64,000 bases of DNA from Levilactobacillus acidifarinae DSM 19394 = JCM 15949 (GTDB lineage Bacteria > Bacillota > Bacilli > Lactobacillales > Lactobacillaceae), in contig NZ_AZDV01000005.1 of assembly GCF_001434835.1 (NCBI RefSeq), positions 391,178-455,177 on the forward strand. Reading direction: 5' to 3'. Position 1 is the first letter of the stretch. Each line of letters opens with the position of its first letter. Positions 21,027 through 51,320 of this stretch are shown here, piece after piece. Under the pieces are notes generated by a model. The model saw only the letters and a program-made list of their open reading frames with translations. It did no database searches and was not told the DNA's origin. The position numbers and the translations under genes are program-made.

Positions 21027-21057
21027 TTGCCTTCGAGTGACTCGAACCTAGTATACT
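21027..21057 (+). promoter_or_regulatory. MerR-type promoter (19-base spacer with palindrome)
   Basis: TTGCCT (-35) and TATACT (-10) are separated by 19 bases, too far for normal RNA polymerase contact. Between them, overlapping the -35, is the palindrome TTCGAGT-G-ACTCGAA (21032-21046). This is the architecture activated by MerR-family regulators. A near-identical site exists at 27119-27149. Confidence 0.6.
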
Positions 21058-21079
21058 GGTGATTATTGTGATGAGTAGA

Positions 21080-21196
21080 GCCGCTTTAAGTGGGCCGGCA
21101 TCCCTGATTTTAGAAAAGCTTAACCCCCAACTTGGGTTAGGTTAAGGCCATGCGGGTAGGATTTAACCCATTAAGTTCATGCTTCAGCGGCCTTTT
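21080..21196 (+). ncRNA. Structured leader upstream of NAD(P)-binding gene
   Basis: The outer stem GCCGCT (21080)/AGCGGC (21186) closes a region holding TTAA-TGGG/CCCATTAA. A strong internal hairpin CTTAACC-CCCAA/TTGGG-GGTTAAG spans 21119-21146. The last arm is followed by TTTT, so it could act as an attenuator before the gene at 21226. It matches no riboswitch class I recognise. Confidence 0.35.
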
Positions 21197-21225
21197 CCAT
21201 AACCTCCCCCGAAAGGAAGATTGGT

Positions 21226-21684
21226 ATGCAACAGATTCTAGTCGTCGGCGCCCTAGACCGCGCCGCATTAACCTTAATTGATCACTTACGGCAGGCGGAG
21301 CACGTCGCTTTGACCGTATATTCACCTAGTCAAGTCACCTTACCGCAAGATGTTTTGGCGTTAACTGGCCAACCCCTAGACGAAGGTGGCCTGACCGCCG
21401 CCATGATCGGGCAGGACCGGGTCATTGCCTTGGTACCCACGATTGGCTTGACCCAGACCGTGCCCACGTTGATTACGGCGTCTCAGGCTGCGGGTTTGCC
21501 CCAACTTGTTTTGAGTCGGACGGACGACGTGGTGGAAATGCCCCGACAACTTCGCGCCGCGCGGCAGGCCCTGATGCAATCCCAGATCCCATTTGACTTT
21601 GTTGACGGGATGGGCGCCATCTTAGCCCTGACCGCCAACGCGGCCGTGGTCCCCCTAACCGAACCCATTAAAAAATCCGTTTGA
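21226..21684 (+). CDS. NAD(P)-binding Rossmann-fold protein (NmrA-like)
   Basis: A short 152-residue atypical SDR. It starts QILVVGALDRAALTLIDHL, where the usual GxxGxxG glycines are partly replaced (VGALDRA), then shows VIALVPTIGLTQTVPTLITASQAAGLPQLVLSRTDD, the strand-4/5 pattern of NmrA-like sugar or redox sensors. It is about 60 residues shorter than typical family members and lacks a C-terminal substrate domain, so a sensor role or decay is possible. AAAGGAAG precedes the ATG. Upstream are a MerR-type promoter and a structured leader. The terminator stem starts within its last codons. Confidence 0.65.
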   Translation: MQQILVVGALDRAALTLIDHLRQAEHVALTVYSPSQVTLPQDVLALTGQPLDEGGLTAAMIGQDRVIALVPTIGLTQTVPTLITASQAAGLPQLVLSRTDDVVEMPRQLRAARQALMQSQIPFDFVDGMGAILALTANAAVVPLTEPIKKSV

Positions 21685-21713
21685 CCTGGAATTGTCCGGT
21701 CAAACGGATTTTT
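21671..21713. terminator. Bidirectional terminator overlapping the stop codon
   Basis: AAAAATCCGTTTGACC/GGTCAAACGGATTTTT, a perfect 16-base stem. The stop codon of the gene at 21226 lies in the left arm. It also ends the convergent MFS gene. Confidence 0.9.
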
Positions 21714-21724
21714 AGTGTGCGTGA

Positions 21725-22954
21725 TTAAGCGGCTTGGGTGTGCCGTTGTCGAATTTCTGGGACTAGCCACCAGACCAATGCGAGGTTGATCAACATCAAG
21801 GCGGCCGTGGAAATAAAGACGGCGTTGTAGTTGAAGACCCCGGCGATCCAGCCCCCAATCAGGGAACCCAGCATGTTGCCGACGGCCTGGAAGGACTGGT
21901 TCCAACTAAAGACCGTGGAGGTGAGTTCAACTGGTGTGTTCTTAGTCAGCAAGGTCTGAATCTCGGGGTACAGGGCCCCGTCGGAGATCCCAATCATGAA
22001 CCGTAAGAGCCCCAGCATCCAAACGCTGGTGACGAACCCTTGGGGCAGGTACATCAGCGTTGCGAAGATGTAGCCGAACAACAACACTCGTCCGGAGCCG
22101 TGCTGGTCGCCGTAGCGGCCCAGGCGGGGGGAGGCGATGATGTTAGAGATCCCGGGTAACGCCGCGATGATCCCGGCGACCACGGTAATTGGCCCGACGT
22201 TATGCATCAATTCCTTGACGTACAAACTGATAATGGGGGAAATCGAAATGTTCCCGAATTGGACGATCAACGTCGAGGAGAGCAGGACCAGAATCAATTT
22301 AGGCTTAGGGAAGGCGGCTAACGGATTGAGACTCCGCTCACCCTTGGGCTTGGGGGCTACCGGCTTGAACTTCTCTTGCACCATGCCCCAACTCATGAAG
22401 AAGGTAATCAGGAGTAAGAACCCGGTGATAAAGAAGGTCAGTCGAATGGTGAAGACTTGTGCCAAGACCCCACCCACGACTGGTCCCAACAACATCCCAC
22501 TGGTTGGACCGGTCATCAAGGTGCTTAACGCCGCACCGCTGTGTTTCCGGGGTGTTTGGGAGGCGACTAACGCCTGGGCGTTAGAGATGTAGCCGGCGAA
22601 GACCCCTTGTAAGGCCCGTAGCGCGACCATCTGCCAAACACTAGTGGCAAAGCCCATCAAGGCCAGAGAAATCCCCATCCCGAGCGACGACCGTAACAAC
22701 ATGATCTTGCGGCCTTTCCGGTCGGCTAGGATGCCCCACAGCGGGGAGGCAATCGCGGAGACGAAGAAGTCGGCCGCGTAGACCAGCCCACTATACATGG
22801 TTACCTGAGCCTTGGTGTAGTCCCCTAAACTACTGATATATAACGATAAAAAGGGCATGATTTCGCTGAACGCCATGCCGGCGACAAAGGTACAGAACCA
22901 CAGCACGTGCAAGTTTTTTTGCCACGGGCTGCGCGCCCTTTCAGCTTCATCCAA
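21725..22954 (-). CDS. MFS transporter, DHA1-type exporter (paralogue 1)
   Basis: A 409-residue, 12-span proton-driven exporter. Motif A is visible as GILADRKGRKIMLLRSSLG, preceded by FLSLYISSLGDYTKAQVTMYSGLVYAADFF; GPTSGMLLGPVVGGVLAQ is motif C (antiporter signature). Multidrug or lipid efflux is likely. The start is TTG: AAGGAG lies about 10 bases upstream, and the frame aligns exactly with the GTG start of its neighbour (DEAERARSPWQKN against DETTKANGPWRRN). Its promoter is at 23050-23078. Very similar along its whole length to the gene at 23156. Confidence 0.85.
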   Translation of the reverse strand: MDEAERARSPWQKNLHVLWFCTFVAGMAFSEIMPFLSLYISSLGDYTKAQVTMYSGLVYAADFFVSAIASPLWGILADRKGRKIMLLRSSLGMGISLALMGFATSVWQMVALRALQGVFAGYISNAQALVASQTPRKHSGAALSTLMTGPTSGMLLGPVVGGVLAQVFTIRLTFFITGFLLLITFFMSWGMVQEKFKPVAPKPKGERSLNPLAAFPKPKLILVLLSSTLIVQFGNISISPIISLYVKELMHNVGPITVVAGIIAALPGISNIIASPRLGRYGDQHGSGRVLLFGYIFATLMYLPQGFVTSVWMLGLLRFMIGISDGALYPEIQTLLTKNTPVELTSTVFSWNQSFQAVGNMLGSLIGGWIAGVFNYNAVFISTAALMLINLALVWWLVPEIRQRHTQAA

Positions 22955-23049
22955 AGTGCGTCAACTCCTTATGATTAGATTGAAAATGAGCCTCACCCCG
23001 AGGGTGACGACCCATCCCGAAACGATTTATTCTATTAGACATCTCTACT

Positions 23050-23078
23050 AAAATACGCCCATAGCCCCGAAAAATCAA
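23050..23078 (-). promoter_or_regulatory. Promoter of MFS paralogue 1
   Basis: TTGATT, a 17-base spacer and TATTTT on the minus strand, leaving a leader of roughly 90 bases. Confidence 0.45.
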
Positions 23079-23155
23079 TGATTTATGGCTAGTTGTATGC
23101 GCTCGCAATAATTAAATTTATTTAGAAACCGGTCCCATTTCCGGTGGACCGGTGG

Positions 23156-24394
23156 TTAATTCTTAGCCGTGGGGGTTGCGGGTGCTCGCCGAATCTGCGG
23201 GGCGCCCCACCAAATCAACGCGAGGTTGAGCAACATTAAGGCCGCCGTGGAGAAGAAGACGGCGTTGTAGTCGAAGATCCCGGCGATCCAGCCGCCAATT
23301 AACGCCCCCAGCATGTTACCGATCGATTGAAACGACTGGTTCCAGCTAAAGACGGTTGAGGTCAGGTCGTTAGGCGTGTTCTTGGTCAGTAGCGTTTGAA
23401 TTTCGGGGAACAGGGCCCCGTCGGCAAACCCGACCATAAACCGTAGAATCCCCAGCATCCAGACGCCGGTCACCAGGCCTTGCGGGAGGTAAACGATGGC
23501 CGCGAAGATGTAGCCGAAAATCAGGACCTTCCCGGAACCGTGGCGGTCACCGTAGCGACCCAACCGTGGGGCGGCGAAGATGTTGGAGATTCCGGGCAGA
23601 GCCGCTAAAATTCCGGCGACCACGGTAATCGGGCCGACGTTATGCATCAGTTCCTTGACGTACAGACTGATGATCGGGGAGATCGAGGTGTTGCCGAACT
23701 GAACGATCATGGTCGACGACAACAGAATGAAGATCAGGCGGGAGCTGGTGAGGACCTTTAACGGATTATGGTCGTTGGCCGTGGTCGTACTTTTGGTAAC
23801 GGGCACGAATTGTTCGCGCACGCAAAATAGACTTAAGAAAAAGGTGATGAGTAGGAGGGTCGCGGTCACGAAGAAGGTCACCCGAATGGAAAAGATTTGG
23901 GCTAAAACGCCGCCCAAAACGGGACCTAAGAGGTTGCCGCTGGTCCCGCCGGTCATCAGGGTACTGAGTGCGGCGCCGCTATGTTCCTGCGGAGCTTGTG
24001 AAGCAATCAAGGCTTGGGCGTTGGGAATGTAACCGGCAAAGACCCCCTGAAGTGAGCGTAAGGCGACCAGTTGCCAGACGTTGGTGGCCAGTCCCATGAG
24101 ACCCATCGCCACGGCGATTCCCAGTGAGGTCCGCAATAACATCACCTTACGGCCGGTCCGGTCGGCCAGCATGCCCCAGAGTGGCGCGGCAATCGCGCCA
24201 ACAAAGAAGTCGGCAGCGTAGACCAACCCGCTGTACATGGTCACTTGGGCCTTGGTGAAATCACCCATTCCGCTGACGTACAGCGACAGGAAGGGCATGA
24301 TTTCGCTAAAGGCCATGCCCACAATAAAGGAGCAGAACCATAAAATATGTAAATTACGGCGCCACGGACCGTTCGCTTTGGTGGTTTCATCCAC
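23156..24394 (-). CDS. MFS transporter, DHA1-type exporter (paralogue 2)
   Basis: A 412-residue sister of the preceding exporter, with motif A GMLADRTGRKVMLLRTSLG and motif C GGTSGNLLGPVLGGVLAQ. I place the start at a GTG (24394). GAAGAGGG lies 8 bases upstream, the N-terminus then aligns with the paralogue, and a promoter plus palindromic operator occupies 24416-24468, inside the longer open frame that reaches 24493. The tandem arrangement of two separate promoters suggests duplication followed by independent regulation, perhaps for different substrates. Confidence 0.85.
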   Translation of the reverse strand: MDETTKANGPWRRNLHILWFCSFIVGMAFSEIMPFLSLYVSGMGDFTKAQVTMYSGLVYAADFFVGAIAAPLWGMLADRTGRKVMLLRTSLGIAVAMGLMGLATNVWQLVALRSLQGVFAGYIPNAQALIASQAPQEHSGAALSTLMTGGTSGNLLGPVLGGVLAQIFSIRVTFFVTATLLLITFFLSLFCVREQFVPVTKSTTTANDHNPLKVLTSSRLIFILLSSTMIVQFGNTSISPIISLYVKELMHNVGPITVVAGILAALPGISNIFAAPRLGRYGDRHGSGKVLIFGYIFAAIVYLPQGLVTGVWMLGILRFMVGFADGALFPEIQTLLTKNTPNDLTSTVFSWNQSFQSIGNMLGALIGGWIAGIFDYNAVFFSTAALMLLNLALIWWGAPQIRRAPATPTAKN

Positions 24395-24415
24395 GTTAAA
24401 GACCCTCTTCACTAA

Positions 24416-24433
24416 AATGTTAACGGTAACATT
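24416..24433. promoter_or_regulatory. Palindromic operator at MFS paralogue 2
   Basis: AATGTTA-ACGG-TAACATT is a perfect 18-base inverted repeat just downstream of the -10 box, where a repressor would block transcription. The regulator is not evident in the window. Confidence 0.5.
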
Positions 24434-24439
24434 ATTTCT

Positions 24440-24468
24440 ATTAAACGCCCAAGTTCTCCAAAGGTCAA
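24440..24468 (-). promoter_or_regulatory. Promoter of MFS paralogue 2
   Basis: TTGACC, exactly 17 bases, TTTAAT on the minus strand. It places the transcript start next to the palindrome at 24416-24433. Confidence 0.65.
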
Positions 24469-24667
24469 CGGGGGCGTCGGCAAAGGCGAACAACGACCGC
24501 CAGGGAATATTTAATATTCTATATGGTAAATCGCTTAATCATTTGAAAATCGGCATAAATCCCGAATTGACGGCGACCGAAGCGAAAAGGGCTAAGAATA
24601 TTGAAAATTGCGAATAATTTATCGCGGAATATTCCCGGCTAGGCATGGCTAAACTGGGAATACCAAA

Positions 24668-24695
24668 AGGCCCACGACGAGATTGTCGTGGGCCT
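24668..24695. terminator. Terminator after MalY-type gene
   Basis: AGGCCCACGAC/GTCGTGGGCCT, an 11-base stem with a 6-base loop. On the minus strand TTTT follows. Confidence 0.75.
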
Positions 24696-24765
24696 AAGCA
24701 ACGTTAAGTTGAGTCTAAGCTGACTGATTGTCGTTTCTCTACTGAGGCTGGCAGTGTTTCAGCGT

Positions 24766-25947
24766 TTAGTTCGCTTTCGCTTGAGCTTTAAACGCGTCAA
24801 TGCCCTTTTCTAAGCGGTGCAGGCCGTCCTTGAGCCGTTCGGCCGGACAAGCCACGTTGATCCGAACGAAGTCGTGCCCGTCACCGCCGTAGACCGCCCC
24901 GGCCGTGATGAACAAACCGGTCTGAGCGCGGATAAAGTCACAGAGTGCGGTGGTGTCGTGCGTGACGTTGCGACAATCGATCCAGACCAGGTAGGTGGCG
25001 TGGCCTTCGATGACCTGGAGATCGGGCAGGTGTTTATTGATGAATTTAGTCAGCGTCTGTTTATTGGCGGTCACCTGAGCGTTCATACCGTGAACCCAGT
25101 CGGCTCCGGTGGTGTAGGCGGCGATGACGGCGGGGACGGCAAACGAATTGGGTTCGGCCAGTTCGTCGGTGTTGAGACCCCGGTCGACCACCTGGCGTAA
25201 AGCCTCGTTAGGAATGATGACCGTGGCAGCGTGTAAGGCCGCCACGTTGAAGGTCTTACTGGTGGACACGCAGGTGATGCTGTTTTGGGCGTTGACGTCG
25301 TTGACCGACGCGAACGGCGTGTAGGGATGGTCGGCGTCGGTGATGTCTCCGTGAATTTCATCGGAGAGGACCGTGACGTGGTTCGCCGCGGCTAATTCAC
25401 CGATCTTAGCCAGTTCGTCTGCCGTCCAAACCTTGCCCACCGGGTTATGCGGATTACAGAGAATCATCATGGTGGTCAACGGCTCGGCCATTTTAGCGTT
25501 GAGGTCGTCCCAGTCGATGGCGTAGGTGCCATCCTGGTCGATCAGGTCGCTAGACAGAATGTGTCGGCCGTTATTCACGATGGAATTATAGAAGATGTTA
25601 TAAACGGGCGCCTGAATCAGGACGTTGTCGCCAACGTTGCTGACGCGCCGGACCGCCGAAGAGATGGTGGGCACCACGCCGGTGGCAAAGCGCATCCAAG
25701 CGGTGTTGGGTGCCCAATTGTGTTCCGTGGCGTACCAGTGTTGCACGGCTTCAAAGTAGGCTTCGGGGACCTCTTCGTAACCGAAAATCCCCGTAGTGGC
25801 TTTGTCCTGAATGGCTTTGACGATGCCGGGAGCCGTTCGGAAATCCATATCGGCGACCCACATCGGGAGTTCGTTATCTTTGACGTCCCACTTGACGGAG
25901 TTGGTGTGGCGCCGGTCGATCATTTCGGAAAAATCAAAGTTAGTCAT
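24766..25947 (-). CDS. MalY/PatB-type PLP aminotransferase (likely cystathionine beta-lyase)
   Basis: Fold type I PLP enzyme of the MalY/PatB family. These cleave cystathionine or related C-S substrates to a thiol, pyruvate and ammonia. Visible marks are DFSEMIDRRHTNSVKWD, NELPMWVADMDFRTAP, LCNPHNPVGKVW, SDEIHGDI (cofactor Asp) and the Schiff-base lysine in CVSTSKTFN; 393 residues is normal. AGGAGG precedes the ATG at 25947, 6 bases away. The start overlaps the stop of the DUF3737 gene by 8 bases, so the two are translationally coupled. An open N-terminal extension to 26067 is only overlap with that gene. Confidence 0.9.
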   Translation of the reverse strand: MTNFDFSEMIDRRHTNSVKWDVKDNELPMWVADMDFRTAPGIVKAIQDKATTGIFGYEEVPEAYFEAVQHWYATEHNWAPNTAWMRFATGVVPTISSAVRRVSNVGDNVLIQAPVYNIFYNSIVNNGRHILSSDLIDQDGTYAIDWDDLNAKMAEPLTTMMILCNPHNPVGKVWTADELAKIGELAAANHVTVLSDEIHGDITDADHPYTPFASVNDVNAQNSITCVSTSKTFNVAALHAATVIIPNEALRQVVDRGLNTDELAEPNSFAVPAVIAAYTTGADWVHGMNAQVTANKQTLTKFINKHLPDLQVIEGHATYLVWIDCRNVTHDTTALCDFIRAQTGLFITAGAVYGGDGHDFVRINVACPAERLKDGLHRLEKGIDAFKAQAKAN

Positions 25948-26794
25948 GGTTAGCCTCCTGGGTGGTAATGGTGGTTTTGGCGGGATCGATGGCCGGGTCG
26001 TCAAAGATGACTTGGCCAATGCTTGGCGCCGTGATGTGCCCGTTGACGGGATTCTTGACGCTATCAATCTGAGTGGTGATGGTGGCGTCGATATCCTTAC
26101 AGTATTCGAAGGATAAGTCGGTGTTGATCAAGGCACTGTTGCGCATGGTCAACCCGTCGACGTAACACAGACCTTGGTCACTTTCCAACCAACAGTTGAC
26201 GAAGGTGATGTTCTTGGTGTTCCAGGACAGGTATTCGCCGATGATGGTCGAATCGTAAATGGTCACGTTGTCACAGTTCCAAAAGGCATCGTGGGTGATA
26301 AACGTTGAGTTGTGGACTTCGATGTTCTTGCCCCCGTCAAAGGCGTAGTTCCCGGTGATTTTCAAGTCGTGGGCGACCACGTTATTGGTGTTCATCCCGA
26401 AGTAATCGCCGTTAGCGGTGACGTGGTCGAGCTGGACGTCGTCACACCACCAAAGGGTTTCGCCGGCGTCGGCGAAGTCCACGTTTTGAAGCTTCAGGTG
26501 TTGGGCGTGTCGGAAAGTTTTGGTTGCGCGCACCGTGGTGTTTTGCATGGTCAGGTTCTGGCTGTACCAGATCCCGGCATGGGCGTCGGGTTGCCAAGTG
26601 GTCTGGTCGACCGTGACGTGATGGGCGTACCATAACGGATACTTCCATTTAAAGATGGTGTGGTCGATGGCGAGATCGTGGGCGTGCTTGAGCGGGGACT
26701 CGCCGTCGTGAAACGTACTGTTGGTGATGTGGAGATCGTGTGCTTGAAATAAGGCGCGTTCTCCGGTAAATGACTGTTGGTTAAGTTCTTTCAA
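25940..26794 (-). CDS. DUF3737 family right-handed beta-helix-like protein
   Basis: A 284-residue protein built from repeats of about 20 residues in the pattern hydrophobic-Asp/His-x-hydrophobic (LHITNSTFHDGESPL, LAIDHTIFKWKYPLW, VTVDQTTWQPDAH, LTMQNTTVRA). These should stack into a parallel beta helix like pectate-lyase or pentapeptide folds. There is no signal peptide, so it is cytosolic. DUF3737 has no known activity. Translational coupling to the MalY-type enzyme suggests a joint role, perhaps in sulphur metabolism, but that is inference. A repeat element and a MerR-type promoter lie upstream. Confidence 0.8.
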   Translation of the reverse strand: MKELNQQSFTGERALFQAHDLHITNSTFHDGESPLKHAHDLAIDHTIFKWKYPLWYAHHVTVDQTTWQPDAHAGIWYSQNLTMQNTTVRATKTFRHAQHLKLQNVDFADAGETLWWCDDVQLDHVTANGDYFGMNTNNVVAHDLKITGNYAFDGGKNIEVHNSTFITHDAFWNCDNVTIYDSTIIGEYLSWNTKNITFVNCWLESDQGLCYVDGLTMRNSALINTDLSFEYCKDIDATITTQIDSVKNPVNGHITAPSIGQVIFDDPAIDPAKTTITTQEANHD

Positions 26795-26822
26795 TTAGGT
26801 TCGACTCCTTTGTCTGACTAGA

Positions 26823-27106
26823 ATCTGCCTTAAAATACTGATCTGGAGGATTCAGCGCTTCCGGACCACTCAGAAATGGGCTGGAACGGAGTGGGTACGG
26901 CTTCAAGCCCCCAGATCAGGTCTTGAAGACCGACCTTTGTCTAGGCTGACGAAGAACGCCAGCCAACACTAGCCCGTTTCCCTCCTGAGCCCATTTCTGA
27001 CTAGTCCTCCAGCTCATACGAGTTATAACCGCAACTAAACTGGATTCTGCTCAATTAAGAGGTATTGACTGGCTATTCAAATCAGTACTTGGATCTTAAG
27101 CCAGCT
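26823..27106 (+). repeat. Structured intergenic repeat, copy 1
   Basis: About 284 bases, closely similar to 45563-45840 and partly to 51141-51320. The outer stem is 26863-26882/26988-27007 (AGAAATGGGCT/AGCCCATTTCT core). Inside are hairpins GGCTTCAAGCC, GGTCTTGAAGACC and GGCTG/CAGCC. The ends CTGCCTTAAAA and CTTAAGCCAGC are roughly inverted. It sits between a MerR-type promoter and the DUF3737 gene. No coding frame is credible within it. Confidence 0.85.
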
Positions 27107-27118
27107 CTTGATAAATTC

Positions 27119-27149
27119 ATTCTAAGCCCTTCGAGCGACTCGAAGGCAA
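27119..27149 (-). promoter_or_regulatory. MerR-type promoter upstream of DUF3737/MalY operon
   Basis: On the minus strand TTGCCT and TAGAAT are 19 bases apart, with the perfect palindrome CCTTCGAG-CGA-CTCGAAGG (27128-27146) between and overlapping the -35. It shares GGTTGCCTTCGAGT and CTCGAA with the site at 21027-21057. Repeat copy 1 lies between it and the gene. Confidence 0.55.
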
Positions 27150-45562: not shown

Positions 45563-45840
45563 GCTTGTCTTAAAAGACTAATCTGGAGGATTCAGCGCTT
45601 CCAGGCCAGTCAGAAATGGGCTGGAACGGAGTGGGCACGGCTTCAAGCCCCCAGAGCAGGTCTTGAAGACCGACCTTTGTCTAGGCCGGCAAAGAACGTC
45701 GGCCTAGACAAATCTCACTCCTGAGCTCATTTCTGACTGGCCCTCCAGCTTATACGAAACTACAACAATCAAACTAAATTCTTTTCAACTAAGAGGTAAT
45801 AAATGGTTATTTAAATTAGTGTTTGGGTTTTAAGGCAGGC
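45563..45840 (+). repeat. Structured intergenic repeat, copy 2 (best preserved)
   Basis: 278 bases. Ends GCTTGTCTTAAAA and TTTTAAGGCAGGC are inverted repeats with 2 mismatches in 13. The outer stem GGCCAGTCAGAAATGGGCT (45604-45622) pairs with 45724-45742. An inner stem GGAGTG (45628)/CACTCC (45716) encloses hairpins GGCTTCAAGCC, GGTCTTGAAGACC and TTTGTCTAGGCCG (45676)/CGGCCTAGACAAA (45700). The family also occurs at 26823 and 51141. An open frame across it is not conserved between copies. Confidence 0.88.
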
Positions 45841-51140: not shown

Positions 51141-51320
51141 GGAGGGAGAAATTCGCTTCCGGACCAGTCAGAAACGGGCTGGAACGGGGTGGGCACGGCT
51201 TCAAGCCCGTGAATCAGGTCTTGAAGATCGGCCTGTGTCTGAGGTTCGAGCCGGCTAGAAACGCCGACTAAGACAAATTTCACCCCTGAGCCCATTTTTG
51301 ACTGGCCCTCCAGCTTACAC
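51141..51320 (+). repeat. Structured intergenic repeat, copy 3 (diverged, truncated)
   Basis: Matches the central part of copies 1 and 2. It includes GGACCAGTCAGAAACGGGCT pairing with GAGCCCATTTTTGACTGG, inner stem GGGGTG (51186)/CACCCC (51281), GGCTTCAAGCC, and CGGC (51252)/GCCG (51263). The right-hand 100-base flank and the terminal inverted repeats of the other copies are not recognisable. The inner stem differs from copy 2 by a paired A-T to G-C change. Confidence 0.75.

Follow-up and report, generated by a model that had tools for sequence, protein, structure and literature searches.

Two MerR-type promoters in Levilactobacillus acidifarinae and an NmlR-like candidate for their regulator

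The stretch of DNA analysed here, which we call the window, comprises 64,000 nucleotides of Levilactobacillus acidifarinae DSM 19394 = JCM 15949 (NCBI RefSeq assembly GCF_001434835.1, contig NZ_AZDV01000005.1, positions 391,178 to 455,177 of the forward strand). It contains two promoters that share a palindrome within an over-long spacer, one before a gene for a small NmrA-like protein and the other before a gene pair encoding a DUF3737 protein and a PatB-family C-S lyase, with two MFS genes between these two target units. We consider the evidence that both are promoters of a single MerR regulon, and that their regulator is MerR-B, a small MerR protein of the NmlR/AdhR kind encoded elsewhere on the contig. 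The principal features, in coordinates of the window, are:

21027..21057, plus strand: promoter/operator 1, TTGCCT-TCGAGTGACTCGAACCTAG-TATACT, with a 19-base spacer and an odd dyad, read from the sequence
21226..21684, plus strand: open reading frame for the target of promoter 1, an NmrA-like or NAD(P)-binding-like protein of 152 amino acids (PF13460, E 1.4e-4, below the curated cut-off)
24766..25947, minus strand: PatB-family C-S lyase (TIGR04350, 390 bits, cut-off 340), with AGGAGG before its start
25940..26794, minus strand: open reading frame for a DUF3737 protein of 284 amino acids, the first gene behind promoter 2 (PF12541, E 6.3e-119)
27149..27119, minus strand: promoter/operator 2, TTGCCT-TCGAGTCGCTCGAAGGGCT-TAGAAT, with a 19-base spacer and the 19-bp odd dyad CCTTCGAGTCGCTCGAAGG, read from the sequence

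Two promoters with a palindrome in the spacer

An original prediction from the sequence had described TTGCCT, 19 bases and a -10 (TATACT or TAGAAT) at both positions, together with a shared spacer palindrome, and direct reading confirms this description. Common to the two sites is GGTTGCCTTCGAGT-N2-CTCGAA, with the spacer core CTTCGAG-N3-CTCGAA; the odd dyad is TTCGAGT-G-ACTCGAA at site 1 and CCTTCGAG-TCG-CTCGAAGG at site 2. As the relevant passages of PMC9909328 describe them, MerR-type promoters have spacers of 19-20 bases with a dyad between -35 and -10, and are weak until a signal-bound dimer kinks the DNA. Both window sites have the palindrome inside the spacer and a spacer of 19 bases, and a sigma-70 scan limited to spacers of 16-18 bases lists neither, as expected. 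The prediction had also named the target units as NmrA-like and as DUF3737 with a C-S lyase, with which the three profile matches above agree, and had placed no MerR gene in the window; none of the genome's 18 MerR_1 matches in fact lies there.

The 20-base pattern of the sites has 2 exact matches in the window and 3 at up to 3 mismatches, the third being site 2 on the opposite strand. Across the whole 2.9-Mb genome, exact CTTCGAG-N3-CTCGAA occurs at the two window sites only (three rows, with site 2 read on both strands), as does TTGCCTTCGAGNNNCTCGAA at up to 2 mismatches; near-matches to the core in this genome (1-2 mismatches) were followed further only where a -10 also fits. Having just two exact copies in the genome would fit two chance promoter-like sequences, or a duplicated stretch, without any regulation. 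However, 100 shuffled windows gave a mean of only 0.11 matches (maximum 2) even at 3 mismatches, and the site is conserved at orthologous promoters in several genera, as detailed below, so that we find this explanation hardly credible.

Conservation at orthologous promoters and strict spacing

In each of 80 DUF3737 loci from named genomes we searched for TTGNCTTCGAGNNNCTCGAANNNNNTANNNT from 350 bases ahead of the open reading frame to 40 bases within it and recorded the best match. Matches with at most 4 mismatches precede DUF3737 in 36 of the 80 loci, spread over several genera: 23 of 24 Levilactobacillus-type loci (22 so named and 2 labelled Lactobacillus sp. or uncultured), the sole one without a site being that of L. 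namurensis (L196); 9 of 12 in Lactiplantibacillus; 2 of 11 in Secundilactobacillus; 1 of 3 in Lacticaseibacillus; and one further uncultured Lactobacillus. At the same threshold no site was found in Companilactobacillus, Pediococcus, Lentilactobacillus and other loci of the 80. The NmrA-like gene is linked in 15 of these loci, and all 15 have the site with at most 3 mismatches, while shuffled controls (20 per region) never had fewer than 5. Both target sites are present in the Levilactobacillus brevis locus L208.

Before DUF3737 in L. herbarum (L231), L. plantarum EGD-AQ4 (L234), S. paracollinoides (L216) and S. collinoides (L218), the odd dyad is replaced by an even one (TTGACTTAAAGTxxACTT), again with a 19-base spacer. 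Because the dyad changes at these four promoters, two in Lactiplantibacillus and two in Secundilactobacillus, the regulator acting there may have been exchanged during evolution.

The spacing was assessed on sites found by -35 and dyad (up to 2 mismatches) alone, in loci fetched without reference to a -10. TANNNT stands at a 19-base spacer in 63 of 71 distinct sites, compared with 1 at 16 bases, none at 17 or 18, and 10 at 21; of the 8 sites lacking it at 19, four are the dyads of two merR-B leaders, each counted once per strand. The 71 sites were drawn from related species, and some of them are not independent; counting identical 31-mers once gives 50 of 58. Loci fetched by a query that bore a -10 were left out, and including them gives 65 of 73.

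Distribution of the site across genome, genus and family

For wider searches we built a model, R1, from 42 sites of other genomes, with that of L. acidifarinae left out. Its training sites were chosen by likeness to the consensus (at most 4 mismatches, 94 candidates) and by promoter appearance, so genus-wide counts partly reflect that choice, and a few matches are the same dyad on the opposite strand. Within the window R1 places site 1 first (30.5 bits) and site 2 second (28.0 bits), with no further full-length match. In the whole genome it returns 7 matches, led by the two window sites (E 1.1e-6 and 7.0e-6) and followed by the promoter of merR-A, a second MerR gene considered below (E 0.026), and that of an aldo/keto reductase gene (C28:365762, E 0.058), the remaining 3 being reverse readings or partial.

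At E <=0.05 there are 2-7 matches in 34 of 35 genomes of the genus, the exception being a genome that is 72% complete; at E 0.001 and with stricter filters, 47 of 301 family-wide genomes have a match, in 10 of 40 genera. The expectation that further sites would be found therefore held across the genus but only in part in L. acidifarinae itself, where further sites are few. Among the loci examined, the genes behind sites encode DUF3737, NmrA-like proteins, short-chain dehydrogenases, aldo/keto reductases, a DJ-1/PfpI protein, a flavodoxin-like protein and a DUF915 hydrolase. In L. acidifarinae a DUF915 hydrolase lipoprotein gene (L082, C2:95070) is also preceded by a site, TTGACTTCGAGTGGCCTTTAAGGCGTAAGCT, which is weaker and is not listed by R1; strong sites stand before its relatives in another genome of the genus (G028, L317) and in another genus (L349), and the gene may be a further target.

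Candidate regulators

MerR-B (C28:51035-51424) is an NmlR/AdhR-like MerR protein of 141 amino acids, whose gene shares the contig with the window, some 340 kb to its left, and is unlinked to the window's units. Orthologues with at least 63% identity are present in 33 of the 35 genus genomes, all but G002 and the incomplete G007. In a set of 30 distinct upstream regions, from which the merR-B genes of G010, G012 and G020 were left out, the odd dyad occurs near merR-B with at most 4 mismatches in 23 regions (20 with at most 3). It occurs near 2 of 57 other MerR genes (none with at most 3 mismatches), these being loci from L. acidifarinae and nine others of the 35 genomes, and near 1 of 26 merR-A genes. 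At merR-B the dyad is found either in a divergent promoter with a 19-base spacer or in the leader, directly downstream of what is likely the core promoter of merR-B, a position from which it might bring about autorepression.

The same pairing recurs beyond the genus. In Lacticaseibacillus songhuajiangensis the site lies between DUF3737 and a divergent MerR gene whose product belongs to the MerR-B clade (support 95/93), and among 18 further loci outside the genus (one per genome), two, L364 and L366, have a MerR divergent to an aldo/keto reductase or dehydrogenase-like gene, again with an odd site between; the MerRs of these two loci are 42-45% identical to MerR-B.

Repressors of the TetR or MarR type also commonly have a palindrome overlying a promoter, and the dyad could on that account be the site of a regulator from another family overlapping a weak promoter. 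A repressor, however, offers no reason for the 19-base spacing kept in 63 of 71 sites, and the dyad is far commoner beside one group of MerR genes than elsewhere; we consider such a regulator very improbable. Conservation at orthologous promoters, strict spacing and the presence of the dyad beside one MerR orthologous group all support the MerR-type reading of the original prediction, and by these sequence comparisons both window sites are almost certainly MerR-type promoters.

MerR-B aligns with Haemophilus NmlR structures at E 5e-24 to 1e-23 over at least 121 residues, with the cysteine aligned. This single cysteine, at the place of Cys54/Cys52, is kept in all 30 fetched MerR-B orthologues, as in NmlR and AdhR, and also in the MerRs of loci L264 and L366. 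Beside merR-B in L. acidifarinae lie genes for a glutathione-reductase-like flavoprotein and an aldo/keto reductase. A role of the flavoprotein as an HOSCN reductase is not supported, since NCBIfam models for MerA/HOSCN and RclA gave 189.5 bits (cut-off 650) and 153 bits (cut-off 740) with a query cut at the end of the locus.

Several observations weigh against this assignment and the regulon built on it. MerR-B scores 91.9 bits against the NCBIfam NmlR model NF041849, whose cut-off is 175, and we accordingly class it as NmlR-like rather than as NmlR. Of the two MerRs divergent to the site in other genera, that of L364 lacks the cysteine. No dyad was found near merR-B in L. acidifarinae itself, nor in its relatives G017, G018, G023, G024, G033 and G034, so that the link to MerR-B in this genome rests on orthology. 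G002 has sites with no MerR-B match, and a different MerR gene (L344), among its 13 other MerR matches, lies just before one of them. No site was found at 44 of the 80 DUF3737 loci. Finally, the proposal that a MerR gene should carry the site holds across the genus through the merR-B orthologues, but in L. acidifarinae a site was found at no MerR gene other than the paralogue merR-A.

This last observation raises the alternative that the promoters are of the same kind but that their regulator in L. acidifarinae is MerR-A (C28:312773-313180), a paralogue with no cysteine that would activate its own promoter and both window units. The matching promoter of merR-A (TTGCCTTGAAGTAACTAGAAGGCTGTAGGAT, with the R1 score given above) speaks for it, as do odd sites before the flavodoxin-like gene of the merR-A cluster in other genomes. 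Yet 9 of the 35 genus genomes lack close MerR-A orthologues (at least 67% identity), and odd sites are present in 8 of these 9; the merR-A cluster promoters of other genomes mostly have even dyads, such as TTGCCTTGAAGTGAACTTCAAGG, with a 19-base spacer; and the one merR-A gene among 26 with an odd dyad near its start is that of L. acidifarinae. On account of these missing orthologues, even dyads and rare odd dyads we place MerR-A below MerR-B and think it an unlikely regulator of the window units. Comparison of the genomes, including the association of the dyad with merR-B orthologues, makes MerR-B the probable regulator of both sites.

In other genomes of the genus the merR-A clusters (L095-L123) hold genes for an NmrA-like reductase, MerR-A, a flavodoxin-like protein and a zinc-type alcohol dehydrogenase, and their even-dyad promoters follow TTGCCTTGAAGT-N2-ACxTxAAGG with a 19-base spacer; this looks like a second MerR regulon. 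Two more MerR genes of L. acidifarinae, L075 (C2:331568) and L069 (C28:174237), have palindromic promoters of their own with 19-base spacers, in divergent direction. MerRs near DUF3737 in Secundilactobacillus (L223, L224 and L230) were discarded as support for MerR-B; they cluster with the paralogue L075.

Leaders and other features of the target units

The start of the C-S lyase gene overlaps the end of the DUF3737 gene by 8 bases. Promoter 1 lies 168 bases from the NmrA-like gene and promoter 2 lies 324 bases from DUF3737. Two further features belong to the second unit:

24668..24695, minus strand: terminator-like hairpin of 11 pairs after the C-S lyase gene, from a consensus scan and by itself no evidence of function
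26855..26998, no strand assigned: part of the 324-nt leader that separates promoter 2 from DUF3737, and one copy of a dispersed repeat; the genome has 38 matches, counting this one

The repeat is about 144 bases long, with further copies in the window at 45595-45734 and 51154-51240, and its presence makes the leader of the DUF3737-PatB operon 324 nt long, where many relatives have about 90-140 bases between site and gene. This leader folds well (z -6.0). The NmrA-like leader (21060-21225) is likewise long at 168 bases, compared with about 30-70 from site to gene in relatives; it is unique in the window and folds no better than shuffled sequences. A search of the window with Rfam returned nothing at gathering scores, and hence no known riboswitch or T-box in either long leader.

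Discussion

On balance we favour the view that the two window sites are sigma-70-type promoters of one MerR regulon, bound by MerR-B and switched on by a distortion of the DNA that an electrophile, aldehyde or oxidant triggers. A MerR-B dimer of the NmlR/AdhR kind would bind the odd 19-bp dyad within the 19-base spacer, and until a signal arrives the over-long spacer would keep the promoter weak. The conserved single cysteine would react with an electrophile, aldehyde or oxidant, whereupon the dimer would kink and untwist the DNA and bring -35 and -10 back into alignment. The NmrA-like gene and the DUF3737-PatB operon would then be induced jointly, along with a few reductase genes elsewhere. 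We infer the binding of MerR-B in L. acidifarinae, the activation by distortion and the inducer; the thiol, aldehyde or electrophile theme of the original prediction fits both the targets and the NmlR/AdhR-type cysteine, and we lean towards an electrophile or redox signal.

The promoters of MerR, CueR, SoxR and BmrR share with those described here a spacer of 19-20 bases with a dyad between -35 and -10. Compared with the CueR operator, the dyad centre here is one base nearer the -35. By the counting used in the relevant part of PMC5045206, 7 bp separate the centre of a 21-bp CueR-type site from the -35. Closest in kind are AdhR (YraB) of Bacillus subtilis and NmlR of Haemophilus, Neisseria and Streptococcus, which like MerR-B have a single conserved cysteine. 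Passages of PMC4776306 and PMC10151825 describe AdhR and NmlR as small regulators of the MerR family in which one cysteine is conserved (Cys52/Cys54) and which activate genes for detoxifying aldehydes and oxidants; the cysteine is required for the response to formaldehyde, AdhR raises adhA, yraC and yraA, and NmlR homologues in Lactobacillus sp. are mentioned (all three points in passages of PMC4776306).

Some targets here are of like kind to those of the AdhR and NmlR regulons, namely the DJ-1/PfpI protein and the dehydrogenases. The main ones differ, however, being DUF3737-PatB, the NmrA-like protein, aldo/keto reductases and short-chain dehydrogenases, and MerR-B is encoded away from the window units and scores far below the NCBIfam NmlR cut-off. 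As for an adhC-type alcohol dehydrogenase, a target characteristic of the NmlR/AdhR subfamily, genes for zinc-type alcohol dehydrogenases are found in the merR-A clusters of other genomes, behind even sites, and none was seen behind the four sites of L. acidifarinae.

The main-text passages of a comparative study of Lactobacillales regulons that includes NmlR give it for Streptococcaceae, with no Lactobacillaceae regulon (PMC3616900). We found no description of the present regulon in the literature on NmlR, AdhR and MerR in lactobacilli, consisting mostly of open-access papers, and our literature search found no paper that names DUF3737. What we describe is apparently a small detoxification regulon, new but of a known kind, that has so far gone undescribed.

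A bolder and quite tentative proposal, which we would not expect to hold in full, is that two NmlR-like paralogues, which share the 19-base promoter spacer and hardly differ in their half-sites, are told apart by a single base pair of dyad length. MerR-B would take the odd 19-bp CTTCGAG-N3-CTCGAAG and MerR-A the even 20-bp CTTGAAG-N4-CTTCAAG, the merR-A gene of L. acidifarinae, behind its odd site, would form a cascade, and DUF3737 would be a new electrophile-stress protein.

Odd and even operators next to a pair of paralogous regulators provide a natural test of how dyad length is measured by MerR proteins. The analysis gives DUF3737, a family whose function is unknown, a candidate regulator and a likely class of signal, and it would place this protein, together with a PatB-type C-S lyase and a small NmrA-like protein, in a regulon that responds to redox changes or electrophiles and is common to food lactobacilli.

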